The notes beneath the pieces are model-generated. The model was given only the letters and a program-made list of their open reading frames with translations. It had not been told where the DNA came from and did not search any database. Below are positions 403 through 62,406 of a DNA stretch of 64,000 nt, piece after piece; within the stretch, counting starts at the first letter, position 1; each line of letters starts with the position of its first letter. Location: assembly GCF_029603165.1 (NCBI RefSeq), contig NZ_JAQSVC010000002.1, forward strand, positions 62,001 to 126,000, given 5' to 3'. This DNA is from Galbibacter pacificus (GTDB lineage Bacteria > Bacteroidota > Bacteroidia > Flavobacteriales > Flavobacteriaceae). The translations under genes and the position numbers were made by a program.

Positions 403-2394
403 ATGAAACGAATTACAAAAATATATGTATTAATTCCTTTTTTGAGTTTTTGTTTAGTTGCGTGTAATTCTTCAGAAGAAAAAAAAGAGGAACAAGAAAA
501 AATAGAAGGGTACCAAATAGAATCGGTTAACATTCAGCATGTAAAATTAAACGATGATTTCTGGCTTCCCATTATTGAAAAAGTTCAGAACAAAACAATT
601 GAATATGCACTGGAAAAATGCGAGCAAGAAGGGCGGTTAGATAACTTTCTTGTGGCTGGAGGAAAAATGGAAGGCGAGGTAAAAGGCGCCATGCCCTTTG
701 ACGATACCGATGTTTATAAAATTATTGAGGGGGCTTCTTATTCGTTAATTAGTACCCCAAATCCACAACTTGAAAAAATATTGGATTCCCTGATAAGTAT
801 TGTAAAAGTAGGGCAGGAAAAAGATGGTTACTTAACTACATGGCGAACCATAAATCCAGCGCATCCGCCAGCAACATGGGTAAACGTTGACCAAGGAAAG
901 CGTTGGGAATCTTTAGAGGCTAGCCATGAATTATACAACGCAGGGCATTTATATGAAGCTGCCGCGGCACATTTTGAAGCAACCGGAAAGAAAAACTTTT
1001 TGGAAATTGCATTAAAGAACGCCGATTTAATGGTGAAGACCTTTGGTCCGGAAGAAGGCAAAATACATACAGTTCCAGGACATCAAATTATTGAAACCGG
1101 ATTGATAAGACTGTACAGAATTACCGATAAAAAAGAATATTTAAATCTAGCTAAGTATTTTCTTGACGGAAGAGGGCACCATGAAGGAAGAAAAGATTTT
1201 GGTCCATATACCCAAGACCATATTCCGGTAGTTCAACAAGATGAAGTAGTGGGGCATGCTGTAAGGGCAGTTTATATGTATGCGGGAATGACCGATATTG
1301 CCGCAATTGAAAACGATACGGCATATGCAAAAGCAATAAGCAAGCTTTGGGAGAATATGGTCAACAAAAAAATGTACATTACCGGTGGAATAGGCGCGAA
1401 ACATGAAGGAGAGGCTTTTGGAGAAAATTACGAACTTCCAAACTTAACGGCATACAGCGAAACCTGTGCCGCCATTGGAGATGTGTATTGGAATCATAGA
1501 TTGCACAATATGACCGGAGATGTAAAATATTTCGATGTAATCGAAAGAACGTTATACAATGGTTTAATCTCCGGACTTTCACTCGATGGTACTCAATTTT
1601 TCTATCCAAATGCATTGGAATCAGATGGGGTCTACAAATTTAATAGGGGTGCATGTACACGGCAGGATTGGTTTGATTGCTCTTGTTGTCCAACCAACGT
1701 TATTCGGTTTATCCCTTCCTTGCCGGGGCTAATTTATTCTAAAACAGCCGATACCGTTTTTGTTAATTTATATGCATCCAATCATGCAAAAATTAACCTA
1801 GCGCATACAAATCTGGAAATTGCCCAGGAAACCGCTTATCCGTGGAACGGAAATGTAAAATTAACGGTCACTCCCGAAACCGAATCAAACTTTACCCTAA
1901 AATTAAGGATTCCAGGCTGGGCCAGAAACGAAGTACTCCCGGGAACACTGTATTCATACAAAAAGAAAGTACATGCAACACCACAAATAAAGGTGAATGG
2001 AGAACAGGTTGAGGCTTCCATCAAAAATGGATACATAACGCTTACACGAAACTGGAAAAAAGGAGAAACCATTAACTTAAACATTCCTATGGAAGTTCGT
2101 GAAGCATTGGCCAATGAAAAGGTTGAAGAAGACCGAAACAAGGTTGCTTTGGAATATGGCCCAATGGTCTATGCTGTGGAAGAGATTGATAACAAAGAAA
2201 ATTTTGATGGCATTTCAATTTCAGAAAATGAAAGTTTTCAGGTAAAAAAGGAAGATAACCTGTTAGGCGGGGTGAATGTTCTAGAAAATGAAAAATTAAA
2301 AGCCATTCCATACTACGCATGGTCAAATCGAGGAATTGGAAAGATGAAGGTGTGGCTACCGTTACAATTACAATCTATAAAAGAATCTAAATAA
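403..2394 (+). CDS. GH127 (DUF1680) beta-L-arabinofuranosidase, lipoprotein
   Basis: A 663-residue lipoprotein: the signal peptide ends in a lipobox with Cys21 (LVAC), so the enzyme is probably tethered to a membrane. The GH127 zinc/thiolate site is visible: Glu353 and Cys355 in SETCAAIG, and Cys426, Cys428 and Cys429 in FDCSCCPTN. These match the Glu-Cys plus CxCC set of the characterised bifidobacterial enzyme, where one Cys is the nucleophile. Family enzymes release beta-linked L-arabinofuranose. The length is typical. It follows the GH51 gene by 21 bp and precedes the ribulokinase gene by 62 bp, so alpha- and beta-arabinofuranosidases feed the same catabolic operon. The family is secure; the natural substrate is inferred. 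Confidence 0.9.
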   Translation: MKRITKIYVLIPFLSFCLVACNSSEEKKEEQEKIEGYQIESVNIQHVKLNDDFWLPIIEKVQNKTIEYALEKCEQEGRLDNFLVAGGKMEGEVKGAMPFDDTDVYKIIEGASYSLISTPNPQLEKILDSLISIVKVGQEKDGYLTTWRTINPAHPPATWVNVDQGKRWESLEASHELYNAGHLYEAAAAHFEATGKKNFLEIALKNADLMVKTFGPEEGKIHTVPGHQIIETGLIRLYRITDKKEYLNLAKYFLDGRGHHEGRKDFGPYTQDHIPVVQQDEVVGHAVRAVYMYAGMTDIAAIENDTAYAKAISKLWENMVNKKMYITGGIGAKHEGEAFGENYELPNLTAYSETCAAIGDVYWNHRLHNMTGDVKYFDVIERTLYNGLISGLSLDGTQFFYPNALESDGVYKFNRGACTRQDWFDCSCCPTNVIRFIPSLPGLIYSKTADTVFVNLYASNHAKINLAHTNLEIAQETAYPWNGNVKLTVTPETESNFTLKLRIPGWARNEVLPGTLYSYKKKVHATPQIKVNGEQVEASIKNGYITLTRNWKKGETINLNIPMEVREALANEKVEEDRNKVALEYGPMVYAVEEIDNKENFDGISISENESFQVKKEDNLLGGVNVLENEKLKAIPYYAWSNRGIGKMKVWLPLQLQSIKESK

Positions 2395-2456
2395 AGCAAG
2401 GAGTTAAATTGGCTCCTTATTCTATAAACGTTTCAAATTGAAAATTAATTGATGCA

Positions 2457-4148
2457 ATGAGCGCGAACAAATCATACGTAATCGGGTTGGATTATGGTAC
2501 AGACTCCGTAAGGGCCGTACTGTTAAATGCTGCCAATGGCGAAGAAATGGCCACCGATGTTGCATACTACCAAAGATGGAAACAAAAATTATATTGTAAC
2601 GCATCCAAGAACCGGTTTCGCCAGCATCCCTTAGATCATATCGAAGGGTTGGAGCAGACCATAAAAACGGTAGTTTCAACTACTGGAGTCGATCCCAAAA
2701 CTATAAAAGGCATCTGTATCGATACCACGGGTTCGTCCCCCATGCCGCTTTCCAAAGATGGTAACCCCCTTGCGTTGTTGCCGGAATTTGCCGAGAACCC
2801 AAACGCCATGATGGTACTGTGGAAAGACCATACCGCCATAGAAGAGGCCAACGAAATCAACGGGCTTTCCAGAAGTTGGGGCGGCCGGGATTTTACCGAA
2901 TTCGAAGGGGGCATATATTCTTCCGAATGGTTCTGGGCAAAAATACTCCATGTTGCAAGGGAAGATGAAAAAGTTAAAAATGCCGCTTATACATGGATGG
3001 AACACTGCGATTACATTACCTATTTACTGTCGGACGAAAAAGACCTGAAAAGTTTCAAGCGAAGCCGTTGCGCAGCCGGGCATAAGGCCATGTGGCACCA
3101 AAACTGGGGCGGGCTCCCACCAGAAAAATTCTTGGGGAAGCTGGATCCTTATCTGGCCGAATTAAGGGGACGGCTTTATGACGAAACCTACACTTCTGAT
3201 ACGGTTGCGGGAAACCTGAACGCCGAATGGGCCGAAAGGTTGGGGTTAACAACCGAAACGGTCGTAGCCGTGGGTACCTTTGATGCCCATGCAGGAGCCG
3301 TTGGAGCAAAAATAGATAAACACACGCTTGTACGCGTTATGGGGACTTCGACCTGCGATATTATTGTAGCTGATGAAAATTTGATTAAAGAGAAAGCCGT
3401 AAAAGGTATTTGCGGCCAGGTAGACGGCTCCGTAATTCCCGGAATGGTGGGGCTGGAGGCCGGTCAATCGGCGTTCGGCGATTTGTTGGCCTGGTTTAAG
3501 GACGTGCTTTCATGGCCTTTGAGCAATTTGGTGTACACCGCAGAAAGTATTTCAGAAATTCAAAAAGCGGGTCTAAAGAAAGAAATAGAGGGGAACTTTA
3601 TCAAGGAACTGTCTATAGCCGCTGAAAATATCCCGTTGGAAGAAAGTATACCTACCGCATTGGATTGGATCAACGGCAGGAGGACGCCCGATGCCGATCA
3701 GGGATTAAAAGCCGCCATGATGGACCTGAGCTTGGGAACCAAGGCACCTCATGTCTTTAAGGCACTGGTAAATGCCATCTGTTTTGGCGCCAAAAAAATA
3801 GTTGACCGTTTTGAAGAAGAAGGGGTCAAGATCAATACCGTTATCGGGATTGGCGGAGTTGCCCGGAAATCCCCTTTTATCATGCAAACGCTCGCCAACG
3901 TGTTGAACATGCCCATAAAAATAGCGGCATCCGATCAGGCACCTGCTCTGGGGGCCGCCATATACGCCTCGGTAGCCGCAGGTATCTATAAAGATGTAAT
4001 TGAAGCGAGTAAGCATTTGGGAAGCGATTTTGAGGCCGAATACCATCCGCAGGAAGGTCAAGTGGAAGTTTATAAAAACTTATTGGCCTCTTATTCGGGG
4101 CTTTCGGCATATATAGAAAACAGTACGTCCAATAGATATAATCAGTAG
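2457..4148 (+). CDS. araB: L-ribulokinase
   Basis: A 563-residue FGGY-family sugar kinase, close to the usual 560-570 residues for ribulokinase and longer than xylulokinase (about 490). It opens with the phosphate-binding motif VIGLDYGTDSVRAVLL, contains the ribulokinase-like segment RVMGTSTCDI in its middle, and ends with the ATP-domain motif GIGGVARKSPF and a DQAPALGAA segment. It phosphorylates L-ribulose to L-ribulose 5-phosphate in the cytoplasm. The start at 2457 is preferred because the ATG five bases upstream meets a stop after one codon. araD begins 2 bp after its stop and araA follows, giving a compact araB-araD-araA operon. Confidence 0.97.
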   Translation: MSANKSYVIGLDYGTDSVRAVLLNAANGEEMATDVAYYQRWKQKLYCNASKNRFRQHPLDHIEGLEQTIKTVVSTTGVDPKTIKGICIDTTGSSPMPLSKDGNPLALLPEFAENPNAMMVLWKDHTAIEEANEINGLSRSWGGRDFTEFEGGIYSSEWFWAKILHVAREDEKVKNAAYTWMEHCDYITYLLSDEKDLKSFKRSRCAAGHKAMWHQNWGGLPPEKFLGKLDPYLAELRGRLYDETYTSDTVAGNLNAEWAERLGLTTETVVAVGTFDAHAGAVGAKIDKHTLVRVMGTSTCDIIVADENLIKEKAVKGICGQVDGSVIPGMVGLEAGQSAFGDLLAWFKDVLSWPLSNLVYTAESISEIQKAGLKKEIEGNFIKELSIAAENIPLEESIPTALDWINGRRTPDADQGLKAAMMDLSLGTKAPHVFKALVNAICFGAKKIVDRFEEEGVKINTVIGIGGVARKSPFIMQTLANVLNMPIKIAASDQAPALGAAIYASVAAGIYKDVIEASKHLGSDFEAEYHPQEGQVEVYKNLLASYSGLSAYIENSTSNRYNQ

Positions 4149-4150
4149 TT

Positions 4151-4855
4151 ATGGAATCTAAATACAAAGAATTGAAAAGGGAATGTTATGGGGCCAATAT
4201 GGAACTGAACGCACTGGACCTGGTAATCTACACCTTTGGAAATGTGAGCGCCGTTGACAGAAAGAACATGGTCTTTGCCATAAAGCCGAGCGGTGTTCCC
4301 TATGAAAAGCTGAAACCGGAGGATATTGTTATCGTCGATTTTGACAACAATATTGTCGAGGGGGAAATGCGCCCCTCTTCCGATACCAAGACCCATGCCT
4401 ATTTGTACAAACATTGGCAAGATATTGGCGGCATTGCGCATACACATGCTACTTACTCGGTGGCCTGGGCACAGGCGCATATGGACATTCCTATTTTCGG
4501 CACGACACATGCCGATCATTTGGTAGCCGATATCCCTTGCGCACCGCCAATGAAAGATGAATTGATCGAAGGGAACTACGAGCACAATACCGGGATCCAG
4601 ATTTTAGATTGCTTCAAGCACAAGAACATCTCGCACAAGGAAGTGCAAATGGTTTTGTTGGGCAACCACGGACCCTTTACATGGGGAGATTCGGCCTCGA
4701 AGGCAGTCTACAACAGCAAAGTATTGGAAGAAGTGGCCAAAATGGCCTATTTAACGCTTCAAATCAACCCGAACGCGCCACGGTTAAAAGATTCACTTAT
4801 AAAAAAACATTACGAACGTAAGCATGGCAAAGATGCCTATTACGGTCAGAAATAA
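4151..4855 (+). CDS. araD: L-ribulose-5-phosphate 4-epimerase
   Basis: A 234-residue class II aldolase-family protein, the typical AraD length. Metal-ligand histidines are visible at His97 and His99 (AHTHATYS) and at His173 (LGNHGPF). Their spacing equals that of the zinc ligands of the E. coli enzyme (95, 97, 171). It converts L-ribulose 5-phosphate to D-xylulose 5-phosphate, the point where arabinose and xylose catabolism meet. It starts 2 bp after araB. The longer reading of araA would overlap its end by 32 bp, but the likely araA start lies just after its stop. Confidence 0.97.
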
Positions 4856-4871
4856 TATTAAAACACAATTA

Positions 4872-6377
4872 ATGATTTCAACAGAAAAAGAAATATGGTT
4901 CGTAACGGGAAGCCAGCATTTATACGGACCTGAAACGCTTAAACAGGTAGCATCAAACGCAGGGACCATTGCAAAAGGCCTAGGCGCATCGCCACATATC
5001 GACCTAAAAATTGTAAATAAGAACATCGTTACCACGCCCGACGAGATAACCGCTATTTGCATTGAGGCGAACACGGCCGAAAATTGCATCGGGATCATTA
5101 CGTGGATGCATACGTTTTCCCCGGCCAAAATGTGGATTGCCGGTCTCAACATCCTAAAAAAGCCATTGTGCCATTTACACACGCAGTTCAATGCGGAAAT
5201 CCCTTGGAAAGATATCGATATGGATTTTATGAACCTGAACCAATCGGCGCACGGCGACCGGGAGTTTGGGTTCATGATGTCCAGGATGCGCCAAAAGAGG
5301 AAGGTAATCGTAGGCCATTGGAAGTCGGAAAGCGTACAAAAACAATTAGGGGTCTGGACACGCGTGGCCTTGGGCTGGGACGAGCTACGGCACATGAAAG
5401 TTGCCCGGATCGGAGATAATATGCGGCAGGTTGCCGTAACGGAAGGAGATAAGGTGCAGGCGCAGGTCCGTTTTGGGATGGCGGTAAACGGTTACGATCC
5501 GTCCGATGTGGTAAAACATATCGATGCCGTTACCGAAAAACAGTTAGATGGACTGCTCGATGTGTACGCATCAACGTACAATTTGACAGAACCGCTTAAA
5601 AAAGGTGGCGCAAAACGCCAATCGCTTATCGATGCCGCCAAAATAGAATTGGGGCTCCGTGCCTTTTTGGACGAAGGTGGATTTAAGGCCTTTACCGATA
5701 CTTTTGAAAATCTGGGAGCTTTAAAACAATTGCCGGGAATTGCCGTACAGCGGTTAATGGCCGACGGATATGGTTTTGGCGCCGAAGGCGATTGGAAAAC
5801 GGCAGCTATGTTGCGAGCCATGAAAGTGATGGCACAGGGACTGGACGGGGGGACCTCGTTCATGGAAGATTATACCTACCATTTCACGCCCGAAAAATCG
5901 TATGTGCTGGGCTCGCACATGCTCGAAATCTGTGCCTCGATTGCCGACGGAAAGATCTCGTGCGAAGTGCATCCGTTGGGGATTGGCGGGAAAGAAGACC
6001 CCGTGCGTTTGGTGTTCGGTTCACCGGCTGGTCCTGCCATTAATGCATCGTTGATAGATATGGGGAACCGTTTCAGGTTGATCGTCAACGAAGTAGAAGC
6101 CGTGAAGCCAATGGGGGAATTGCCAAAGCTGCCCGTGGCTAGGGTACTTTGGGATTGCAAACCAAATCTTGAAGAGGCGACTACCGCATGGATTTTGGCG
6201 GGCGGCGCGCATCATACGGTATATTCGCAGGCACTTTCAACGGTTTATATGGAAGATTTTGCAGATATTGCCGGAATAGAACTCTTGGTAATTGATGCCA
6301 ATACCAATATCCGGGAATTTAAAAACACGCTTAATGCCAACGAAGCATATTATCACTTGTTTCAACATGCAATGTAA
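4872..6377 (+). CDS. araA: L-arabinose isomerase
   Basis: Read from the ATG at 4872 this is 501 residues, the normal AraA length, and starts [20 protein letters not shown], which matches the conserved N-terminus of the family. The frame is open upstream to an ATG at 4824 inside araD, but the extra 16 residues ([16 protein letters not shown]) do not look like AraA and would force a 32-bp overlap, so 4872 is preferred. Internal segments fit the family, such as [11 protein letters not shown] near the N-terminus and the C-terminal [15 protein letters not shown]. The enzyme interconverts L-arabinose and L-ribulose in the cytoplasm. Third gene of the araBDA set. Confidence 0.96.
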
Positions 6378-6399
6378 CCGCCTAAACCTAAAATAAATT

Positions 6400-7593
6400 A
6401 TGAATATGTCTAAACGAAGTCTAAAATATGTTCTGCTTTTGTGCTTGGCACTTGTTTTCACTCAGTGTAAAACAAAAACAGAAAATGCATCTGATAACCA
6501 AGAACAAAATTCAACCAAAGGAATGACTACAAAGCATCAAATTTCAACATCCGAATTTGGTAAGCTTCCGTCCGGAGAAAAAATAACAAAATATCGACTT
6601 GTTAATGAAAATGGAATGGAAGTGGATATTATCAATTATGGTGGGATTATTACCAATTTGAAAGTTCCCGATAAAAATGGAGTTAATAAAGATGTTGTTT
6701 TAGGATTTAACTCTTTGGATGGATATTTAACCCCATCTCCTTATTTTGGGGCTATTATTGGTCGCTACGGAAATAGGATTGCCGGCGGGAAATTCGTAAT
6801 CGATGGTAAAGAGTATACCTTGGCGTTAAACGATGGAAAAAACCATTTGCACGGGGGTAACAAGGGCTTTGATAAAGTGGTTTGGGAAGCAACCCAAATT
6901 TCTAATTCAAAATCGGTTTCCCTACAATTATCTTATTTAAGCAAGGATATGGAAGAAGGCTATCCAGGGAATTTAAAAACCACGGTTACCTATACGCTCG
7001 ACAATTCTAATTCCTTGAAGGTGAAGTATGAAGCTACTTCCGATAAAAAAACGGTAGTGAACTTAACCCAGCATTCGTATTTTAATTTATCGGGGGATTT
7101 TTCAAAGAAGATATTAGATCATCAAATAATGATTAATGCTGATGCTTTTTTACCTGTTGATGCCACTTTAATTTCAACCGGGGAATTTCGAAAGGTAAAA
7201 GGAACCCCTTTCAATTTTACTTCGGCAAAAGCCATCGGAAAAGAAATCAATAGCGAAAACGAACAACTAAAACGTGGTTTGGGGTACGATCATTGTTGGG
7301 TATTAAAAGACCAAGACAAAGGACAGCGATTGGCGGCAACGGCATACGATCCTAAAAGTGGCAGGTTTATGGAAGTATTTACCGATCAACCTGGCATACA
7401 GTTTTACACCGGAAATTTTTTAGACGGCACCTTGCCGGCCAAAGGAGGCGGAACCTACGCAAAACGTACCGGTTTTTGTTTGGAAACCCAACATTTCCCC
7501 GATTCGCCAAACCAAAAAGACTTTCCATCGGTATTGTTAAGCCCAGGGGAAAAATACCAAACCGAAACTTCTTTTAAATTTTCCGTGAAATAG
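6400..7593 (+). CDS. galM: Aldose 1-epimerase (mutarotase), lipoprotein
   Basis: A 397-residue galactose-mutarotase-family protein with a lipoprotein signal whose acceptor is Cys23 (VFTQC). Active-site landmarks are present: NHLHGG, the TQHSYFNLSG histidine motif, and the C-terminal CLETQHFPDSPN containing the catalytic Glu. It interconverts the alpha and beta anomers of aldoses. Export as a lipoprotein suggests that it acts on free sugars outside the cytoplasm before uptake. An in-frame ATG two codons downstream (MSKRS) is an equally possible start. It sits between araA and a sodium:sugar symporter gene, as in other Bacteroidota arabinose operons. Confidence 0.92.
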   Translation: MNMSKRSLKYVLLLCLALVFTQCKTKTENASDNQEQNSTKGMTTKHQISTSEFGKLPSGEKITKYRLVNENGMEVDIINYGGIITNLKVPDKNGVNKDVVLGFNSLDGYLTPSPYFGAIIGRYGNRIAGGKFVIDGKEYTLALNDGKNHLHGGNKGFDKVVWEATQISNSKSVSLQLSYLSKDMEEGYPGNLKTTVTYTLDNSNSLKVKYEATSDKKTVVNLTQHSYFNLSGDFSKKILDHQIMINADAFLPVDATLISTGEFRKVKGTPFNFTSAKAIGKEINSENEQLKRGLGYDHCWVLKDQDKGQRLAATAYDPKSGRFMEVFTDQPGIQFYTGNFLDGTLPAKGGGTYAKRTGFCLETQHFPDSPNQKDFPSVLLSPGEKYQTETSFKFSVK

Positions 7594-53529: not shown

Positions 53530-55071
53530 ATGTTAGCTATATACGTCCGTTTAAGCAAAGAAGATGAAGATTCAAATTCAATCAATAACCAACTTAATGA
53601 AGGCAAGGACTTTGCTAAAACTCATAAATTAAAATACAAAATATATAATGAAGGTGAGGGGGTAAGCGGTACTTTGGACATTGCACAACGTCCACAACTA
53701 CAGCTTCTGATGAATGAAATAAATAGCGGTGTTATTACTTCAGTATGGATGCGTAATCAGAACAGGCTCGATAGAAATAGCTTAACATTTGCTTTTTTCG
53801 TTGATATAGCAAAAAAGAATAATATTGATGTGTATTTTGGTAATAATGAAAAGCTGGATTTCAATAACCCTACAACACTTTTAACAACCTCAATACTATC
53901 AAATTTAAATCAATACCAAGCGCAACTTCAATCCTATCAAACCAAAAATGTAATACAAAAAAAAGTAAGTGAAGGTAAGACGCATGGCATTATTCCATTG
54001 GGATATAAAAAAGATGATAATGGATATATGGTGGTTGATGATGATGAAGCAAAATTTGTAAATGAGATATTCCAATTATACTTAAAAAATAATGACGGTG
54101 TGCAATTCCTTTGCAATAAACTAAATGATGAAGAACGATTAACTAGAAATGGCAAGCAATGGAAAAGCTATGTATTATGGAATTTATTGCACAACACAAC
54201 ATACATAGGTAAAAGACTATTTAAAAATAATATATACGAATGCCCAGCCATTATTGATAAAGGTTTATTTGATGCAGTCCAAAAAAAATTATCTAATTCA
54301 CAATCAAGTACGGGAAAAAAAGTAACGCACAGATACCTTTTAAAAGGCTTATTAAAATGTGGCAAGTGTGGACGTAACTACAATGGAAGAATAAATAAAA
54401 AAGCTGGTGATAAGCATTATATATGCGCAAGCGTTAGAAGTGGACATAAAAGCTGTGGCAATAGAAGATTGGATATAGATAAAATGGAAAATTTTATTTT
54501 CCAGCTTATAATAAATAACAGCTGGCTAATCGATAAGGTAAAGGATGAATATAAACATGATGATGATAAATTGAAGCGTTTAAAAGCCGATATAACAACT
54601 TATAATAACAATATAACGGCTTATAACAAAAAGAAAAATAAAGCCATTAGAATGACTGTTGATGGGCTTATTGATGAAAAGGACATAAAAGCAATAATAA
54701 ATGATTACGATTCAAGTATTGAAGCTGAAAAACAAAAAATAAAGGACGTTGAAAATATTATTAATAATATAACTAACAGCAATAAACTAATCAATAGCAT
54801 TGAAGAAGATATAAATGACTTGTCAAATAAATTAACCTTCAAAGAGAAAAAAGAAATTTTAAATAAATATATAAATAGCATAACCACAACCGATAACAAA
54901 ACAAAAAAAGAATACCACATTAATATCAATTTCAAAATAGATGTGGAAATGGAGAATTTTATTATTGATTTTAAATATGAAAACTACATATTATTAAAAG
55001 AAAATATGATATTTAAATTCAACCCACATCAAAAGAATTACGGTGAACCCGTATTTGAACTAATGCACTAA
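53530..55071 (+). CDS. Large serine recombinase / phage integrase
   Basis: A 513-residue recombinase. The catalytic resolvase domain is at about 1-145: nucleophile Ser9 in YVRLSKEDED, the NNQ segment, the ISGT-like GVSGTLD, and RNQNRLDRN with catalytic Arg. A recombinase domain follows (about 165-250, IPLGYKKDDNGYMVVDDDEA), then a zinc ribbon with Cys277, Cys280, Cys299 and Cys309 (LLKCGKCGRNY), a long coiled coil (about 325-445) and a C-terminal tail. Family members insert and excise phage or other elements between short attP and attB sites. Its place at the edge of the A+T-rich segment makes it the integrase of this prophage. Confidence 0.95.
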   Translation: MLAIYVRLSKEDEDSNSINNQLNEGKDFAKTHKLKYKIYNEGEGVSGTLDIAQRPQLQLLMNEINSGVITSVWMRNQNRLDRNSLTFAFFVDIAKKNNIDVYFGNNEKLDFNNPTTLLTTSILSNLNQYQAQLQSYQTKNVIQKKVSEGKTHGIIPLGYKKDDNGYMVVDDDEAKFVNEIFQLYLKNNDGVQFLCNKLNDEERLTRNGKQWKSYVLWNLLHNTTYIGKRLFKNNIYECPAIIDKGLFDAVQKKLSNSQSSTGKKVTHRYLLKGLLKCGKCGRNYNGRINKKAGDKHYICASVRSGHKSCGNRRLDIDKMENFIFQLIINNSWLIDKVKDEYKHDDDKLKRLKADITTYNNNITAYNKKKNKAIRMTVDGLIDEKDIKAIINDYDSSIEAEKQKIKDVENIINNITNSNKLINSIEEDINDLSNKLTFKEKKEILNKYINSITTTDNKTKKEYHININFKIDVEMENFIIDFKYENYILLKENMIFKFNPHQKNYGEPVFELMH

Positions 55072-55355: not shown

Positions 55356-56129
55356 ATGTACACACCAAAAAAATTAAAGGAATTATTAAAAAAATATAAA
55401 CCATTAACCGAAAAAAGGACAATTGAATTAATATTAGATTGTAAGAATAATAAAGATAATGATGCATTGCAGTTATTATATCTTCATAATATTAGATATA
55501 TAACATCCGCAACAAAAAAATATGTAAGGAACGAAGATGAATTATATGATTATATAAATGAGATATATTTTGTGATGGATGAATGTGTAAACAAATTTGA
55601 TTTAAATAAAAACATAAAATTTATAACATATCTGAATCTATATATAAAAAAGAAATGCAGGGAAATAACCAACCAAAGGGAAATTGTTAATTTGAATTAT
55701 AATACTCATTTTATATTTAAAAAAATTGAAAGATATATAAATCATAAGGCAAACAATGAGCATATATATTTTACCGAATGTGACACCCATATTATTGCGG
55801 ATGATTTGAACATTGCAACAGCCATGGTTAAAAGGTATTTTAAGCATGCATACAACAGTTATATATCGCTTAATACAAAATATGATGGTGATGAAGAAAT
55901 GATTGATTATATGGCTTCCAATGATGATTATGATTTGGATTATAAATTAATAATTCAACATTATAAAAATATTATACAGAAAAAGAACCCAAAACATTTT
56001 AATATGATTATGGATTATTTTAATGGCAATTATACTTATGAGAGTTTGGGGAAAATATATAACCTTTCGGATGAAAGGGTAAGACAGATAATAAAGGGGT
56101 TAAAGAATATAAATGAATTTAATAATTGA
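55356..56129 (+). CDS. Divergent sigma-70-like factor, phage-encoded
   Basis: A 257-residue protein with the layout of a small sigma factor. A region-2-like segment lies at about 45-110 (DELYDYINEIYFVMDECVNK, FDLNKNIKFITYLNLYIKKK). A middle part near 145-190 (NIATAMVKRYFKHAYNSYIS) is region-3-like. A clear region-4 helix-turn-helix ends the protein at about 225-252 (YTYESLGKIYNLSDERVRQI). The family would direct RNA polymerase to phage promoters. It is the first gene of a rightward group after the integrase and overlaps the next gene by 17 bp. A non-sigma DNA-binding role cannot be excluded, because region 2 is weakly conserved. Confidence 0.75.
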   Translation: MYTPKKLKELLKKYKPLTEKRTIELILDCKNNKDNDALQLLYLHNIRYITSATKKYVRNEDELYDYINEIYFVMDECVNKFDLNKNIKFITYLNLYIKKKCREITNQREIVNLNYNTHFIFKKIERYINHKANNEHIYFTECDTHIIADDLNIATAMVKRYFKHAYNSYISLNTKYDGDEEMIDYMASNDDYDLDYKLIIQHYKNIIQKKNPKHFNMIMDYFNGNYTYESLGKIYNLSDERVRQIIKGLKNINEFNN

Positions 56130-56415
56130 AACGTTGGGATGTTATGGCATATGTAACATCATTGTATTTGGTAGTATTTTTGAAAATATTAGATTGTATT
56201 TGAACGTAAAATTTTACGTTTTATCCAAATTATTAAGTTGCATGATGTGCTTATCATTTTGGATTGGATTGTTAATTGGATTTATTGGGCATAATGATTT
56301 TAATTTATATCAAATACTATTATATGCATGTTATTTTAGTGGCACAACATGGCTATTGTACCATGTACAAAGCGCAATTGAAGGGTTGATTGGTTATTTG
56401 AATGGTTATGATTGA
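56113..56415 (+). CDS. Small multi-helix membrane protein with a CxxC-like motif
   Basis: A 100-residue, very hydrophobic protein with about three membrane segments: residues 3-22, a central helix following SKLLSCMMCLSFW, and LYQILLYACYFSGTTWLLYH. The C-M-M-C-L-S-F-W-I-G pattern resembles small phage and bacterial membrane proteins that bear a Cys pair at a helix start. Function unknown. Its start lies inside the sigma-like gene (17-bp overlap), so the two are translationally coupled. A terminator follows it. Confidence 0.7.
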   Translation: MNLIIETLGCYGICNIIVFGSIFENIRLYLNVKFYVLSKLLSCMMCLSFWIGLLIGFIGHNDFNLYQILLYACYFSGTTWLLYHVQSAIEGLIGYLNGYD

Positions 56416-56570: not shown

Positions 56571-56972
56571 ATGGAAAAAAATAACTTCAAACCAACAGAT
56601 AAACAAAAGATGTTGTTGTTAAATATATTTGATAACACAGATAAGATTATATGGAATTATAATTTGTATAATCATCTACATGAGGTATTAAGTAAAACTG
56701 AATTTAATACCATATTTTCCAGCTTAAGATTAACTGGTTTAATCAAACAAAACGGACATCAAGAAAAGGTTTATAGGTTAACAGATAAAGGTAGAAAGGT
56801 AAAACAATTGGGTAGTGTAGATAAATATTATGATGAAATAGATAGGGTAGAAGAACTAAAGATAAATGTATTAAAGAGTACTAAAATAACTAACAATGTT
56901 TCAATGGTAGTATCAATAACAACTTTAATTGTTTCAGTATTAACCTTTATAACATTAATATTAAGCAACTAA
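56571..56972 (+). CDS. Winged-helix-like protein with a C-terminal membrane anchor
   Basis: A 133-residue protein. Residues about 8-85 look like a winged helix: TDKQKMLLLNIFDNTDKI, then YNHLHEVLSKTEFNTIFSSL as recognition region, LRLTGLIKQNG, and a wing-like KVYRLTDKGRKVKQL. A short linker leads to one hydrophobic helix at the very end (about 108-131, VSMVVSITTLIVSVLTFITL). This suggests a DNA-binding or adaptor domain held at the inner membrane from the C-terminus. It is one of four prophage proteins here with this single-anchor layout. The role is unknown. Confidence 0.7.
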   Translation: MEKNNFKPTDKQKMLLLNIFDNTDKIIWNYNLYNHLHEVLSKTEFNTIFSSLRLTGLIKQNGHQEKVYRLTDKGRKVKQLGSVDKYYDEIDRVEELKINVLKSTKITNNVSMVVSITTLIVSVLTFITLILSN

Positions 56973-57012
56973 TATTATATATGGATATTGAATTAAAGAT
57001 AAATAACCAACC

Positions 57013-57411
57013 ATGAATATTAATATATCATATGATTCCAATGAACTAGCCAATAATAAAGACATACCATTGGATAAGAGTTACATTTTAATCAAGGGCA
57101 ATAAATTGTTATTGTATTATGGGATGATATATGGTGATAATGGTAATGAAATGAGTTATGAAACTTTGAATACACCCTACCAATTAGTTTATATGAAAAA
57201 AGATGAACGTGGCTTTTATGGTACAGATAAACAATATTACATTGAAACCGATGATATTTATATTCCATTCATATTCTTTAACCTCACATGGTATCAGTAT
57301 TTAATTCTTAAGTTTAATAATATAATATACAACCATACAGCCATTGTAATAGCTATATTTTCATTAATAGTTGCAATAACAAGCTTATGTTATCATATTA
57401 TGAGAGGGTAG
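57013..57411 (+). CDS. Tail-anchored small protein with WYQY motif
   Basis: A 132-residue protein with a soluble N-terminal part of about 95 residues rich in Tyr and Asp, and a C-terminal membrane helix (about 107-128, HTAIVIAIFSLIVAITSLCY). Just before the helix is FNLTWYQYLILKF, which corresponds to IHLKWYQYWKIKY in the minus-strand protein at 58336. It seems to be a diverged relative read from the opposite strand. No enzyme motif is visible. It follows the winged-helix membrane protein by 40 bp and is the last rightward gene here. Confidence 0.65.
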   Translation: MNINISYDSNELANNKDIPLDKSYILIKGNKLLLYYGMIYGDNGNEMSYETLNTPYQLVYMKKDERGFYGTDKQYYIETDDIYIPFIFFNLTWYQYLILKFNNIIYNHTAIVIAIFSLIVAITSLCYHIMRG

Positions 57412-57737
57412 GGGATAGGTTAATTAATCATACCATTTATGCATCATAGATTTTTATTATAGCAACATATAAAAAACTTATTTTACATAAGGTAAATTAT
57501 AATGCAATATTTTATCATTGAAATTAATGGAATTTAATCCAATATAAATTATCTGTATATTTTTAATTAATTTATTCATCGTAAAATACCGATAAAGCCA
57601 GTAAAATCAATATATACAAGAGTTTTTTATATGTTTTTTTTAGTGGGTAAAGTAAGCAAAAAATATAATAAACCTTATACTTTAATACATTTTCTATTCA
57701 ATATTTCAATTATATTTCACACATAACAAACTCATAA
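57412..57737. other. Convergent intergenic region in the prophage
   Basis: A 326-bp A+T-rich gap where the rightward and leftward gene groups meet. A weak stem (TTTAC/GTAAA, near 57483-57496) and several T-runs could help termination, but no strong hairpin was found. No gene was recognised. Confidence 0.5.
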
Positions 57738-58226
57738 TCAGTTAAATATAAATTCAGTTAACAAAAGAGTGATAAAACTACCGATTAACATGAATACAAT
57801 TTTATCTATTAATTTGCTTCTATGTAACCAAGTATCTTTTTTATGGCATTTAATTTTCCAATATTCGAACATATTAAGGTATATATAAACTTGTTTTTCG
57901 GTAATTTCTATAGAGGGGGAAGATATTTCATAATTTACATTATTAATACCTAAATTTTTTATATCTGTTTTGGACAACTTGTTAATTTCTATATCTTCTC
58001 TAATATTAGTTTTATGTTCAACTATTACACTATGTATATCTTCATTATAATATAGTGCTTTTATTTCTTTTAGTTTACCTTTTTCAATTATAACATAGAG
58101 GTTCTTTGTATTTTTAATATATTCTTCGCTATTGGTAAAATCTTCTTCAAATTGCGTTAATGTATAACTTATGTTAACTTCAAATTGTTTTTTGGTTTTT
58201 TTACTGTAGTAGATTGTTTTTTTCAT
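57738..58226 (-). CDS. Tail-anchored small protein, paralogue A
   Basis: A 162-residue protein with a soluble N-terminal domain (about 1-115; starts KKTIYYSKKTKKQFEV) and a C-terminal module MFEYWKIKCHKKDTWLHRSK followed by the helix KIVFMLIGSFITLLLTEFIF. The module is nearly identical to that of the neighbour at 58336, whereas the N-terminal domains share little beyond the YYSK start and a DNGK/EKGK-like strand. It is therefore a constant anchor fused to a variable head. The positive KKDTWLHRSK segment before the helix suggests a cytoplasmic head. Function unknown. It is read leftward at the end of the minus-strand group. Confidence 0.72.
   Translation of the reverse strand: MKKTIYYSKKTKKQFEVNISYTLTQFEEDFTNSEEYIKNTKNLYVIIEKGKLKEIKALYYNEDIHSVIVEHKTNIREDIEINKLSKTDIKNLGINNVNYEISSPSIEITEKQVYIYLNMFEYWKIKCHKKDTWLHRSKLIDKIVFMLIGSFITLLLTEFIFN
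57756..57865 (-). repeat. Anchor-module repeat, copy A
   Basis: These 110 bases match 58354-58463 with about nine mismatches by eye. They code for the end of the pre-anchor motif and the membrane helix of paralogue A. Confidence 0.85.
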
Positions 58227-58253
58227 TGGTTGTTATAATGTTCTTGTTTTATG

Positions 58254-58276
58254 TTGAAGATGTTTATTGTATGGTT
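58254..58276 (-). promoter_or_regulatory. Duplicated 23-bp leader upstream of paralogue A
   Basis: Identical to 58833-58855; it contains CATACAATAAACATCTTC on the minus strand and lies 27 bp before the start codon at 58226. The exact conservation next to diverged coding sequence suggests a promoter or translation element. Confidence 0.5.
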
Positions 58277-58335
58277 ATTTAACTAAATTGCCGATTTCAG
58301 GTTAAAATAAGGGGTTTAGGTTAATAAATATATAT

Positions 58336-58824
58336 TCAGTTAATTATAAACTTAGTTAACAAAAGGGTGATAATACTACCGATTAAGGTGAATACAATTT
58401 TATCTATTAATTTGCTTCTATGTAACCAAGTATCTTTTTTATCATACTTAATTTTCCAATATTGATACCATTTTAGATGGATAAAGGTTATTAGTTCATG
58501 TTTATTTGGTATTAGTATTTTAACTCTATAATTGTTAGTAATTTCATGAACCATTTTATCATACTTGGTTATTTTATTTATTTCAAAATTATATTCAACA
58601 ATATTATTATTACTTCTCTTTTGAATAAAATATGAATTAATTTCTTTTATTTTTCCATTATCTATAATTATATAATCATTACTTATACTATTTTCAAATT
58701 CATTTATTTCATCTGAATAATTTGAATTAATTACCCTAATATCTTTTTCATAATATACTGGTTTAAAACTTTCTTTATATATATCCAATATTTCTTTACT
58801 ATAATATAATTTGGTTTTAATCAT
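58336..58824 (-). CDS. Tail-anchored small protein, paralogue B
   Basis: A 162-residue protein of the same length and layout as the gene at 57738. The N-terminal head starts IKTKLYYSKEILDIY and contains IIIDNGKIKEINSYF. The C-terminal module is HLKWYQYWKIKYDKKDTWLH, then a helix VFTLIGSIITLLLTKFII. The DNA coding for the anchor is about 92% identical to that of paralogue A, and the 5' leader is also duplicated, which points to a recent tandem duplication followed by divergence of the heads. Function unknown. Confidence 0.72.
   Translation of the reverse strand: MIKTKLYYSKEILDIYKESFKPVYYEKDIRVINSNYSDEINEFENSISNDYIIIDNGKIKEINSYFIQKRSNNNIVEYNFEINKITKYDKMVHEITNNYRVKILIPNKHELITFIHLKWYQYWKIKYDKKDTWLHRSKLIDKIVFTLIGSIITLLLTKFIIN
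58354..58463 (-). repeat. Anchor-module repeat, copy B
   Basis: Partner of 57756-57865, 598 bp away in the same orientation, in paralogue B. Confidence 0.85.
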
Positions 58825-58832
58825 TTTATATA

Positions 58833-58855
58833 TTGAAGATGTTTATTGTATGGTT
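58833..58855 (-). promoter_or_regulatory. Duplicated 23-bp leader upstream of paralogue B
   Basis: Identical to 58254-58276; here it lies 8 bp before the start codon at 58824. Confidence 0.5.
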
Positions 58856-58879
58856 GCAGTACCAAATATAGATATTATA

Positions 58880-59119
58880 TCAAATATCTTTGTTCATATT
58901 GTTTATTATCCGTTGCACTTGTCTTGTGGAAAGTTCATAATCATTGGCAAGAATAAGATATTTTGATGTTTCGTTTAATTTAATTTCCTTCCATTTTTTA
59001 TATATCTCAATATCCCGTATTATGGTAAATGACAACAGCCCATATTGCACCATTTGATGTATTATGGGTTCATTTTTTGTTATAAAATCAATTAACTTAT
59101 CATTGTTTTGGTTTAACAT
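58880..59119 (-). CDS. Small HTH protein, phage regulator type
   Basis: A 79-residue protein. The C-terminal half ends with a helix-turn-helix (about 52-74, KYLILANDYELSTRQVQRII) like those of Mor-type or region-4-type activators. The N-terminal part (VQYGLLSFTIIRDIEIYKKW) looks like a helical dimer or packing segment. Its start overlaps the end of the sigma gene upstream by 20 bp, so the two are co-translated. It probably regulates transcription of prophage genes. I cannot name an exact family. Confidence 0.7.
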   Translation of the reverse strand: MLNQNNDKLIDFITKNEPIIHQMVQYGLLSFTIIRDIEIYKKWKEIKLNETSKYLILANDYELSTRQVQRIINNMNKDI

Positions 59120-59738
59120 TTTCTTTTATCAGTTCAATGGCTTCGTTATATAATTGGTATATTCTGCTTCTGCTTACCCCCAATGTATCACCTATTTCCT
59201 GCATGCTTCTTTTTTTAACGTTCAATCCCATATAATTAATAACTATATACCTATGTTTTGGATATTGGTTTAAAGCGTTCAAACACATATCTATTCTTTT
59301 ATTATTTATTTCTTCTTCTTCCAAATCATCGTATATATAGTTTGCGTCCTCATATAGATTTGATGTTATGTTATAATTGAACGAAATATTTTTATAGGGG
59401 TAGGTTTCATTTTTTTCATAATACTTGTGCATTGGAATGTGTATTGTGGAGGTTTTGCCCTTCATATATTTGTTCATTTCTCCCCATATAAAAGAATGGG
59501 CGTATGTTACAAATGAAAAGTTCTTATTATAATCAAAACCATCAAATGCCCTTAATAAGCCTATATTTCCAACTTGTATCAAATCTTGCTTATGTTCCTT
59601 CCTGTTCCATTTATTGGCAATGCTAATAACAAATGGTATATGGTTCTCAATGATATTATTCTTTATTTTTTCCTTTTTAATTTGATTGTCCGTGTTGTGG
59701 TATTGTTCAAATAATTTTAATGTTTTAATCTTTGTCAA
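59100..59738 (-). CDS. Sigma-70 family RNA polymerase sigma factor, phage-encoded
   Basis: A 212-residue sigma factor. Region 2 is clear at about 30-95: ENHIPFVISIANKWNRKEHK, then QDLIQVGNIGLLRAFDGFDY and NFSFVTYAHSFIWGEMNKYM. A region-3-like segment follows (TSTIHIPMHKYYEKNE). Region 4 ends the protein (about 175-205, SMQEIGDTLGVSRSRIYQLY). It looks like a compact RpoD-type or sporulation-type factor with no region 1.1. It lies downstream of the tail genes on the same strand, next to a small HTH gene, and probably switches on a prophage promoter class. It is clearly different from the sigma-like protein at 55356. Confidence 0.9.
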   Translation of the reverse strand: MTKIKTLKLFEQYHNTDNQIKKEKIKNNIIENHIPFVISIANKWNRKEHKQDLIQVGNIGLLRAFDGFDYNKNFSFVTYAHSFIWGEMNKYMKGKTSTIHIPMHKYYEKNETYPYKNISFNYNITSNLYEDANYIYDDLEEEEINNKRIDMCLNALNQYPKHRYIVINYMGLNVKKRSMQEIGDTLGVSRSRIYQLYNEAIELIKENVKPKQ

Positions 59739-59934: not shown

Positions 59935-62406
59935 TTATAAATTTGCTCCCGATTGTATAACGCTTACCCTGTTGTTAACATCGTTTATTTCTTCCACGCT
60001 CACAACTGGTGATGGTGCATTTGAATAAGCAACTAGCATGCTTTGCGTTAATAGGTTATAATCGATTAATGGTGAAGCTGTATTTGATGGTTTACCCACA
60101 ACGCCACCAGTTGCAAAGCCAGGTACCCCGATTGATTTAAATAGGGCATCGCCACCCAATAATGCTTGTTGGTTTTCATTTAATATTACCTCACCATCCT
60201 TGGCTGTAATCAATCTATTATCTCCATTGCTCCTGCTTATTGCTTGTCCACCGTTTATCCTTCCACCCGTTGCATAACCATTAATATCTGTTGATGGCAT
60301 TGATGGTTCTTTTGTGGATGTTATTTGTTTTACGTTTGCAATACCAGCTGCAACGGCTGCCGCTGCGGCAACCGCACCCAATGCTGGCCCAACAATTGGA
60401 ATTCCTGCCATTGCATTATATGCAGCAACTGCCGATGCATATGTATCAATGGTTGCCTGTGCAATTGCAAATGCTTTTCCTGCGGTTGATTCCTTGCCCA
60501 TTATGGCAACCATATTGCCCAATGTCTGCGATGCGATATTTAATTTTGCCTGTGCTGTTGCTTGTTTTATCTTTTCTTCTAACTTGGCATATTTTTCTTC
60601 TATTTTTGTTTTATCCTTTCCAGTTTTATCGGCTGTGGATAGTTCTTGTTGTTTTTGTTTGTTCAAATAATTAAGTTGCCCATCCAAATTGAATTGCCAA
60701 TTTTCCGCTTGTGCCTGTCTATCTATTTCAAGGTTAATTAAATCATTTTCGATTTCTGCCTGTCTTTGTTCTTCCTTTAATTGTTGCAGTTGTGCATCCC
60801 TTTCAGTTTGGGCAAGCAAAAGTAAATCCGTTTTTTGTTGTTCCGTTAACCTTAAATTTTCCAGTTCCTTTTGTTGTGCTTCATAATCTGCAAGTATTTT
60901 TTGTTCCCTATATTCAAAATCATTTTCGATTGTGTATGCCCTTATTTCATCTTCTATTGCCTTTTTTCTTGCTTGGAAATCTTGCAGTTGTGCAATTTCT
61001 TCATTGTTAAGTGCGTTTTGGTTTGCCAAGTATTCGGAACGTTGCCCTTCAATCCTGTTTTCAACTTCCAATCTTTCGTTCTTTAACCGCAATACCTCAT
61101 TTTCCAAATCGATATTGCCCTTGTTAAGTGAAGCTTCTTTTGATGCACCGCTTATTTTTAAATCGATTAATTTTAATTCTGCTTCTGCCTGTTCATCCAG
61201 TACCTTTGCCAGTTCTTCATTTATTTTCTTTCTTTCTTCAATTGTCTTTGATTCATCATCCCTTGCCTGTCTTAGTTTTTCAGCTTGTCTTTCAAATTGT
61301 TGGATAATACCTTCCTGTTGAATAACAAGCCTTTCCATGTTATTCTTTATATCGGTTAGGGCTTTGGCATCATCTATTATTTTTGAGTAATCTATTTTTG
61401 ATACATTATTGGCAATTGCCTTTCCAGTTTCCTTTAATTCGTCATATGCGCCCCCTATGTTATTGTACACTTGTTTTCCAGCAATGATTGCCTGTTTTCC
61501 AAGTTCATCAATGGTTGCTTTTGTATTTGCCAAATCATCTTCCAGTTCCTTTATTTTGGTTGAATCATTATTACCGAATATTGATTTTTCCCATAATAAT
61601 TGCGCACCCAAAATGGATGCCTTTATACCATGAAATGCCAATTGAACTGGGGTTAAACCAAGCGTTATTAAACCTTTTGCGGTTTTGGTTAAATTATCAA
61701 AACCATTTGTTGCGTTATATACTTGCGTTACAGTATCAACCACAGTACCAACAACCTTATCGAAGGTTATTGAAATGGCATTGAATACCGTATTGATTGT
61801 ATTTGCAATCTTTTGGTTACGTGTTAAAGCTTCCGTGAATTTTGTTATTGCACCGACAATAAGCAATATACCAGTTGCCTTTAATGCTGCACCAAATGCC
61901 TTAACACCTATTTTGGCTTTATTGATTGCTGATGTATAGCCACCTATTGATTGTTTTTGCTGTTCTAACCTTGATGTATTTTGCTTTATAAAGGCATTGT
62001 TCTTATCAATCTTATCATTGATAAGTTCCACAGCTTGCGCACCCTCTTTGGTGGAAGTGTTTAATTGGTTACGAAGTTTTTTTAATTCCTTATTATTGTT
62101 TGAAGCTTCATCAATCGATTTATTTTCTTTTGTAATTGCTGATGTTAACTTTGTGGTAACCTGAACTTGTTTGCCTTGTTCATCAATCAATTGTTCAACT
62201 ACCTTTTTTTGATTGTTGAACGAAGATGTTAATGATTTTAATTGCGCTTCATTTTTTACATATTGTTCCGAATTGGTATCACCTTGTTTTTTTAACTCCT
62301 TTTGTGATTCCTTTAATTCGTCAATACTTTTTTTTGTGTCACCTAATTTTTTTATTAAGCCATCTGTGTTTATATCTAAGTCTAGTATATTTACCTTTTG
62401 TGCCAC
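59935..62406 (-). CDS. Phage tail tape-measure protein
   Basis: An 823-residue protein. A long N-terminal coiled coil is rich in Lys, Gln and Asn (about 1-160). A hydrophobic stretch follows near 170-195 (FGAALKATGILLIVGAITKF), then a second very long Gln/Glu-rich coiled coil (about 355-625), and a hydrophobic Ala/Gly-rich part (about 665-705, VGPALGAVAAAAAVAAGIAN). The C-terminal domain, with YATGGRINGGQAISRSNGDN, KDGEVILNENQQALLGG and GVPGFATGGV, is typical of tape-measure C-termini in Bacteroidota phages. It sets tail length and helps DNA passage. The tail-protein gene lies 23 bp upstream on the same strand. It implies a long-tailed phage. Confidence 0.9.
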   Translation of the reverse strand: MAQKVNILDLDINTDGLIKKLGDTKKSIDELKESQKELKKQGDTNSEQYVKNEAQLKSLTSSFNNQKKVVEQLIDEQGKQVQVTTKLTSAITKENKSIDEASNNNKELKKLRNQLNTSTKEGAQAVELINDKIDKNNAFIKQNTSRLEQQKQSIGGYTSAINKAKIGVKAFGAALKATGILLIVGAITKFTEALTRNQKIANTINTVFNAISITFDKVVGTVVDTVTQVYNATNGFDNLTKTAKGLITLGLTPVQLAFHGIKASILGAQLLWEKSIFGNNDSTKIKELEDDLANTKATIDELGKQAIIAGKQVYNNIGGAYDELKETGKAIANNVSKIDYSKIIDDAKALTDIKNNMERLVIQQEGIIQQFERQAEKLRQARDDESKTIEERKKINEELAKVLDEQAEAELKLIDLKISGASKEASLNKGNIDLENEVLRLKNERLEVENRIEGQRSEYLANQNALNNEEIAQLQDFQARKKAIEDEIRAYTIENDFEYREQKILADYEAQQKELENLRLTEQQKTDLLLLAQTERDAQLQQLKEEQRQAEIENDLINLEIDRQAQAENWQFNLDGQLNYLNKQKQQELSTADKTGKDKTKIEEKYAKLEEKIKQATAQAKLNIASQTLGNMVAIMGKESTAGKAFAIAQATIDTYASAVAAYNAMAGIPIVGPALGAVAAAAAVAAGIANVKQITSTKEPSMPSTDINGYATGGRINGGQAISRSNGDNRLITAKDGEVILNENQQALLGGDALFKSIGVPGFATGGVVGKPSNTASPLIDYNLLTQSMLVAYSNAPSPVVSVEEINDVNNRVSVIQSGANL

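Follow-up and report, generated by a model that had tools for sequence, protein, structure and literature searches.

A gene cluster with C-terminal hydrophobic helices

The DNA analysed here (the window) is a stretch of 64,000 nucleotides from Galbibacter pacificus (contig NZ_JAQSVC010000002.1, positions 62,001 to 126,000; G000:C14:62001-126000 in our numbering). It contains part of a prophage, which runs from a serine integrase gene at 53530 to beyond the window. Near the integrase gene lie four small adjacent genes, the cluster that is the subject of this study, each of which is named here by its first position. The product of 56571 (56571..56972, plus strand) has 133 residues, with a predicted winged-helix head and a C-terminal hydrophobic helix, a putative tail anchor (segment 113–131). 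That of 57013 (57013..57411, plus strand) has 132 residues and consists of a soluble head, a pre-anchor with the motif WYQY and a C-terminal hydrophobic helix (segment 111–129). The remaining two genes form a tandem pair on the minus strand, each coding for 162 residues with a segment at 143–161: paralogue 1 (58336..58824) has a head, a WYQY pre-anchor and a constant tail anchor, and paralogue 2 (57738..58226) has a head followed by the same constant anchor. All four reading frames are intact.

Each of the four proteins has one hydropathy segment only (Kyte–Doolittle, 19-residue mean 2.34–2.55), and this segment ends 1–3 residues from the C terminus. A preliminary description of the locus had listed four small proteins, each with a soluble head and a hydrophobic helix at the extreme C terminus, and both the open reading frames (ORFs) and the hydropathy analysis agree with it. 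Tail-anchored proteins are characterized by a single segment within about 30 residues of the C terminus, no other segment and no signal peptide; judged by hydropathy only, all four proteins have this layout. The layout is infrequent in comparable DNA. ORFs were called mechanically in seven regions, from this genome and six others, each region comprising a prophage with its chromosomal flanks. Among the 312 non-overlapping ORFs of 80 residues or more, six have a single segment ending at most 12 residues from the C terminus, and four of these six are the adjacent genes 56571, 57013, 57738 and 58336; the remaining two are both in genome G159. A second prophage region of the same genome, which lies outside this count, holds two further ORFs by the same criterion, namely a relative of the winged-helix protein and a 100-residue ORF outside the prophage. 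The grouping of the four genes is real, and more than chance.

According to the positive-inside rule, basic residues before a helix place the head in the cytoplasm. In 56571, 57738 and 58336, the 15 residues before the helix include basic ones and no basic residue follows it, so the heads of these three proteins would be cytoplasmic. The location at the inner face of the membrane that had been suggested for the whole set is plausible for these three by charge; for 57013, which has one basic residue on each side of its helix, the charge is even.

The tandem pair and the pre-anchor motif

The products of 57738 and 58336 are 43% identical over 160 residues (E 3e-30), and the identity is unevenly distributed. 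The anchor, counted from Y122 of 58336 onwards, has 35 of its 41 residues and 91% of its bases in common between the two; for the heads, the figures are 37 of 111 aligned residues and 53% at the DNA level. The contrast extends to silent sites: among common residues with more than one codon, the same codon is used at 31 of 33 in the anchor and at 20 of 36 in the heads (Fisher p = 2.9e-4), and third positions are alike at 36/41 and 46/111, respectively. The anchor block spans 142 nt at 89% identity, and the similarity at the 3′ end declines shortly beyond the stop codon. The heads are nevertheless related, since none of 2,000 shuffles reached their head-only similarity score. An identical 22-nt leader precedes both genes, 27 nt upstream of the start codon of 57738 (58254..58275, minus strand) and 8 nt upstream of that of 58336 (58833..58854, minus strand); the whole genome contains these two exact copies and one with 3 mismatches on contig C11. 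Upstream of the leader of paralogue 1, TATATTTG (58863..58870, minus strand) is a candidate −7 box fitting TAnnTTTG, which we take to be the Bacteroidota −7 box consensus. This pattern is not enriched in the window (81 matches versus 102.5 expected by chance).

On the evidence of their sequences, 57738 and 58336 are a tandem duplication, and their heads are diverged homologues, not unrelated swaps. The preliminary description had called them two recent paralogues with a nearly constant anchor and different heads. The paralogy and the anchor stand, but the heads are homologous, and the notion of a constant anchor joined to changing heads is better replaced by that of a tandem duplicate with homogenized anchor DNA and diverged homologous heads. 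Because protein-level selection alone would not hold silent sites, either the anchor DNA was homogenized or a diverged head entered between like flanks. We propose that a unit of about 0.6 kb was duplicated in tandem and that the heads then diverged strongly, the anchor DNA being kept alike by recombination or conversion; alternatively, recombination may have brought in a diverged head between similar flanks. A single conversion event would suffice to produce the contrast between anchor and head.

The relationship of 57013 to the pair is weaker. 57013 and 58336 have in common F-x-L-x-WYQY and the subsequent helix, and these are the two occurrences of WYQY among 247,940 residues of six-frame stop-to-stop frames of at least 60 residues. 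The pre-anchor motif noted earlier thus links 57013 weakly to one paralogue, but not to 57738, which has FEYWKIK in its place. At full length, none of 2,000 shuffles scored as well as the 57013–58336 comparison, as against 681 of 2,000 for the head alone; with the pre-anchor but without the helix, 7 of 2,000 did, and 1 of 1,000 in a second test (28 pairs compared). No match was found between 57013 and 57738 (915/2,000 shuffles as good), and 57013 obtains only −0.2 bits with a two-row profile built from the pair, a score that many shuffles exceed. A common origin of 57013 and the tandem pair is therefore only suggested by sequence.

Relatives of these three genes were sought in several sets. 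In its own genome, 58336 matches itself, its paralogue and one sequence at E 0.19, and it has no relative in the viral_contigs or phages sets; 57738 has none in genome_contigs. 57013 matches itself and one sequence at E 0.09 with an internal stop in its own genome, and no relative was found in phages or viral_contigs, genus and family being outside that search. The pair profile found only the own genome in the genus (1/7) and matched 9 of 397 family genomes at E 0.01, own included. All eight non-own matches (E 5.8e-5 to 0.0094) were rejected: five contain stop codons, two lie inside frames of 956 and 1,887 residues, and the last is in a frame that we take to be dehydroquinase-like. The first step of this family search was lossy, with a maximum of 8 candidates scored per genome, and absence is no proof. 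As far as these lossy searches reach, the pair is without a relative elsewhere, which is one half of what the preliminary description would have counted against itself; the winged-helix member, however, recurs in the second prophage.

The winged-helix protein and its recurrence

Profile matches of 56571 are weak (phrog_11046, E 1.2e-4; PadR, E 0.01), the PadR model scoring 16.3 bits, under its curated cut-off of 27. The genome also encodes a relative, at C14:461734-462126 (33% identity, E 3.4e-10; 31–33% across comparisons), where it adjoins the serine integrase of the second prophage on the opposite strand from the integrase. The structure model of this relative has a mean predicted local distance difference test score (pLDDT) of 79 and consists of helices, a two-strand wing (58–61 and 64–67) and a long helix (80–129). 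Matches from a Foldseek search against the PDB included MarR, LmrR, PadR-like, Sso10a and MotA folds (best E 0.023), and the best viral match was at E 0.0031. PadR/LmrR, MarR and MotA resemble the modelled head in their winged-helix fold; in the relative, however, the winged helix runs via the long helix into the C-terminal segment, and scores are below the family cut-offs. A winged-helix fold is thus supported, with no particular family, by a model of the relative and, for 56571, by alignment to that relative. The winged-helix head ascribed to 56571 at the outset thus draws on its own weak profile matches together with a fairly confident model of its relative.

Further afield, a family search with 56571 found only the own genome (1/378), and an order search with a two-row profile matched 6 of 395 genomes, own included; its first step was lossy, and a maximum of 10 candidates was scored per genome. 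One match, in a genome from another family of the order (G638), is an intact protein of 173 residues in which a similar winged helix precedes a membrane helix and a coiled tail. None of 1,000 shuffles was as good as its soluble part compared with 56571, or with the second-prophage relative. The G638 gene (L050:9212-10902) lies downstream of an apparent transposase gene, presumably of the IS1595 type. Among the other matches, one in G483 looks PadR-like, with stop codons inside the match, and three look unrelated, as judged by eye. No relative of 56571 was found in phages or plasmids, or in viral_contigs and genome_contigs (two peptide patterns each in one search per set).

In the second prophage, the integrase gene is followed on the other strand by the winged-helix tail-anchored gene, and 2 bp from the latter is a gene for a 238-residue protein composed of a soluble head and a single segment closer to the C terminus. 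In both prophages, the winged-helix gene adjoins a co-directional head-plus-helix gene, although the gene order differs. The repeated neighbourhood that the preliminary description had proposed to look for exists to this extent, but the partners are not similar: the heads of 57013 and the 238-residue protein show no similarity (383/1,000 shuffles as good). Searches with the 238-residue head covered the Pfam, PHROGs, PADLOC and NCBIfam profiles.

Prophage setting and function

The integrase gene (53530..55071, plus strand) is the leftmost recognized prophage gene (Resolvase 1.1e-18, Recombinase 1.1e-15, Zn_ribbon_recom 1.4e-11; phrog_95 4.6e-84), and its product is 49% identical to the second-prophage integrase and 39% to the integrase of a related prophage in genome G044. 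It is followed by a gene for a phage sigma-70-like factor (55356..56129, plus strand; Pfam Sigma70_r4 2.1e-6; phrog_351 8.6e-18) and, between this factor and the cluster, one for a 100-residue protein with two predicted membrane segments (56113..56415, plus strand). On the late-gene side lie genes for a small Mor-like helix-turn-helix protein (58880..59119, minus strand; Pfam Mor E 2.4e-4, below cut-off), a second phage sigma-70-like factor (59100..59738, minus strand; Pfam Sigma70_r2 7.1e-12; phrog_351 1.2e-33) and the tape measure protein (59935..62406, minus strand; phrog_3336 1.9e-20; 29% identity to gp21 of phage phi46:1), the closest recognized structural gene. Two sigma-70-like factors on opposite strands thus flank the cluster, which the Mor-like protein also adjoins, and the cluster itself sits at the junction of the plus-strand, integrase-side genes with the 3′ end of the minus-strand structural genes. 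The minus strand to about C14:144 kb encodes the tape measure, terminase, endolysin, tail fibres, portal, maturation protease and a DNA methyltransferase. The right end of the prophage is at about C14:149 kb, placed by a gene common with the end of the second prophage; the ends are approximate.

For the portal protein, the best-ranked phage record is Cellulophaga phage phi46:1 (149 records matched). This phage (NC_021800) has the same structural gene order (portal 36%, tape measure 29%): 12 genes of the prophage are collinear with it, from the protease (gp01) to the tape measure (gp21); the cluster is located past this stretch. Proteins whose detection by mass spectrometry is recorded in the phi46:1 annotation likewise extend no further than the tape measure. 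Phage phi46:1 differs in that its integrase is annotated as PF00589, presumably of the tyrosine type, and in that it is without the four cluster genes, none of which matches it; its very short gp24 (60 residues, beside the integrase) and gp09 (42 residues) end in a segment. The endolysin gene (C14:130722-131171; phrog_7, 3.7e-51) is about 9.9 kb from the cluster and, with a weak spanin-like gene (E 0.024), occupies about C14:130.7-131.6 kb. None of the four cluster proteins has a lysis-family (holin or spanin) match. Because collinearity with phi46:1 ends at the tape measure and the endolysin is elsewhere, the cluster is outside the recognized virion and lysis genes.

The sigma factor at 59103 was found in the own genome only at E 1e-15 (1/397 family genomes), and the sigma factors have no relatives in viral_contigs. 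The integrase has no relatives in phages at E 1e-20 and one related locus in viral_contigs, where no head-plus-anchor gene was seen by eye in the ORF list from 1500 to 7000. Sigma-70-like promoter matches in the window are not above chance, there is one terminator-like site, as expected by chance, and no RNA family was found. The genes flanking the prophage match in 7/7 and 5/7 genus genomes, in several copies; an empty integration site was not found, the best flank matches being at least 32 kb apart or on different contigs.

The position and layout of the cluster lead us to favour, tentatively and short of even odds, the reading that these are accessory genes of the prophage whose products are tail-anchored, have their heads in the cytoplasm and act in superinfection exclusion or a similar membrane-linked block. 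Exclusion at the inner membrane is the likeliest role from these features, if still a doubtful one, with regulation at the membrane next. We infer membrane insertion, topology, expression in the lysogen and exclusion; display, exclusion or regulation, as first put forward, are all possible roles. In the mechanism that we envisage, the cluster would be a prophage accessory (‘moron’) locus beside the integrase, its products being inner-membrane tail-anchored proteins with their heads in the cytoplasm. In a lysogen, a head at the inner face of the membrane would contact either a component of the incoming phage or a partner from the host, and entry or an early stage would thereby be blocked. If one anchor carries divergent heads, recognition could become broader, and the winged-helix tail-anchored protein, whose gene is twice found beside a head-plus-helix gene, may be a partner or regulator. 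A more specific version, which we consider rather unlikely, is a modular system in which recognition heads are duplicated and diversified between constant DNA flanks on one fixed tail anchor, with a tail-anchored winged-helix partner, so that a change of head alone would widen exclusion or sensing.

Precedent for accessory membrane genes comes from related prophages, which carry SieB (G355) and segment proteins (G044). The G355 prophage has a true SieB as an accessory gene (PF14163, E 4.1e-18); the G044 integrase gene is surrounded by genes for three proteins, which have 2, 2 and 3 segments. In G355 (L033:15613-17110), the SieB gene is followed by one for a 261-residue protein with three predicted segments. 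SieB resembles the proposed exclusion proteins in being a prophage accessory membrane protein with a cytoplasmic part. SieA of phage P22 is likewise a small inner-membrane exclusion protein of a prophage, and is described as having three strongly diverged sequence types, less than 30% identical (PMC10883804).

Several observations weigh against exclusion. The G355 SieB has two segments, neither of them C-terminal, whereas the cluster proteins have only the C-terminal one and no similarity to SieB, the PF14163 model giving no match for the four genes at E up to 1. SieA, with three predicted segments in 162–164 residues, has no large soluble head as described (PMC10883804). ORFs with a single C-terminal segment are absent from the G044, G029 and G355 regions, and the layout is therefore no constant feature of these phages. 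No head matches an exclusion or defence family in Pfam, PHROGs, NCBIfam or PADLOC, and no relative of a head was found outside the own genome in the lossy searches made. Prediction of head structures gave a winged helix for the 56571 relative, whereas for the 58336 head the model was of low quality (mean pLDDT 45). Relaxed constraint could explain the divergence of the heads equally well. The SieA types, for all their divergence, did not differ in target in the test reported (PMC10883804), and for this reason we are cautious in equating head divergence with a change of specificity.

The main rival of exclusion is membrane-tethered regulation of the prophage, which we rate as clearly less probable. 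Here, the winged-helix protein would bind prophage DNA at the membrane, and the head-plus-helix proteins would be co-sensors or antagonists setting repression or activation. The predicted winged helix of the 56571 relative with its Foldseek matches, the co-directional neighbour in both prophages, and the two sigma factors and Mor-like protein adjoining the cluster argue for it. However, the gene order differs between the prophages and the partners are dissimilar, winged helices also serve protein contacts, and no operator was identified, the sole identical repeat noted being that before the tandem pair.

Two further explanations are unlikely, and about equally so. In one, the proteins are abortive-infection or toxin-type effectors: once triggered, they would depolarize the membrane or damage it, a mode of action proposed for Sbash gp30/gp31 and RexAB. 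The site beside the integrase, the small membrane segments and the precedent itself, in which a membrane protein and a partner form a prophage-expressed defence (PMC6426596), are consistent with this. In that description, however, gp31 and RexB have four predicted segments each, the channel acting with a soluble partner (PMC6426596), as opposed to one helix per cluster protein; these sequences were compared via family libraries only. PADLOC gave no convincing match for the four proteins (best E 0.016, CARF-type model), although this is a weak test, as the G355 SieB is also without a PADLOC match. In the other explanation, the genes are accessory ORFs that serve no selected function or are slowly decaying, and the contrast within the pair reflects one recent partial conversion. 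The lossy search of 397 family genomes gave no credible relative of the pair, and a single event suffices for the silent-site contrast, but none of the four frames is disrupted, two prophages retain the winged-helix member (31–33% identity), and an intact relative occurs in another family of the order. Finally, it is very unlikely that these are lysis or virion proteins (holin, spanin, minor tail or ejection protein), despite their small size, their proximity to late genes and the tandem pair being on the late-gene strand, given the separate site of the endolysin and spanin-like genes and the end of the phi46:1 virion proteins at the tape measure; as far as tested, they are not the ordinary virion or holin proteins that the preliminary description had allowed for.

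Prophage-borne membrane accessory proteins are a well-known class, and prophages carry many accessory membrane genes without names. What is new here is the single tail anchor, the pair with a homogenized anchor and the repeated winged-helix neighbour. No profile library (Pfam, PHROGs, PADLOC, NCBIfam) names any of the four proteins, and among the matches listed in a search of open-licence papers, none concerned tail-anchored phage heads of this kind. If the cluster does act in exclusion, it would add a layout, a soluble head on a single C-terminal anchor, to the membrane exclusion types of known mechanism, and the tandem pair would allow a direct test of head divergence against specificity.

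With related winged-helix members in two prophages of one genome, conflict or cross-talk between co-resident prophages becomes testable. The two prophages also have an accessory gene in common near their right ends (C14:148677-149063, that is L008:3677-4063, and C14:489068-489496 in L051, both on the minus strand). The copies are 82% identical, whereas other genes matching between the two prophages are 23–53% identical. The gene encodes a small protein with a signal-like start, by eye a putative lipoprotein, with a DUF4367 match below the cut-off. The second prophage is flanked by parts of a comM/yifB-type Mg-chelatase gene (C14:458907-459561 and 489512-489955; L043 and L051; Pfam), and the G044 prophage, which has a serine integrase, likewise lies between Mg-chelatase gene parts (L027:2568-3446 and L028:16415-16999). 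We take the gene split by these two prophages to be comM/yifB. Other elements are known to target comM (PMC11472951).

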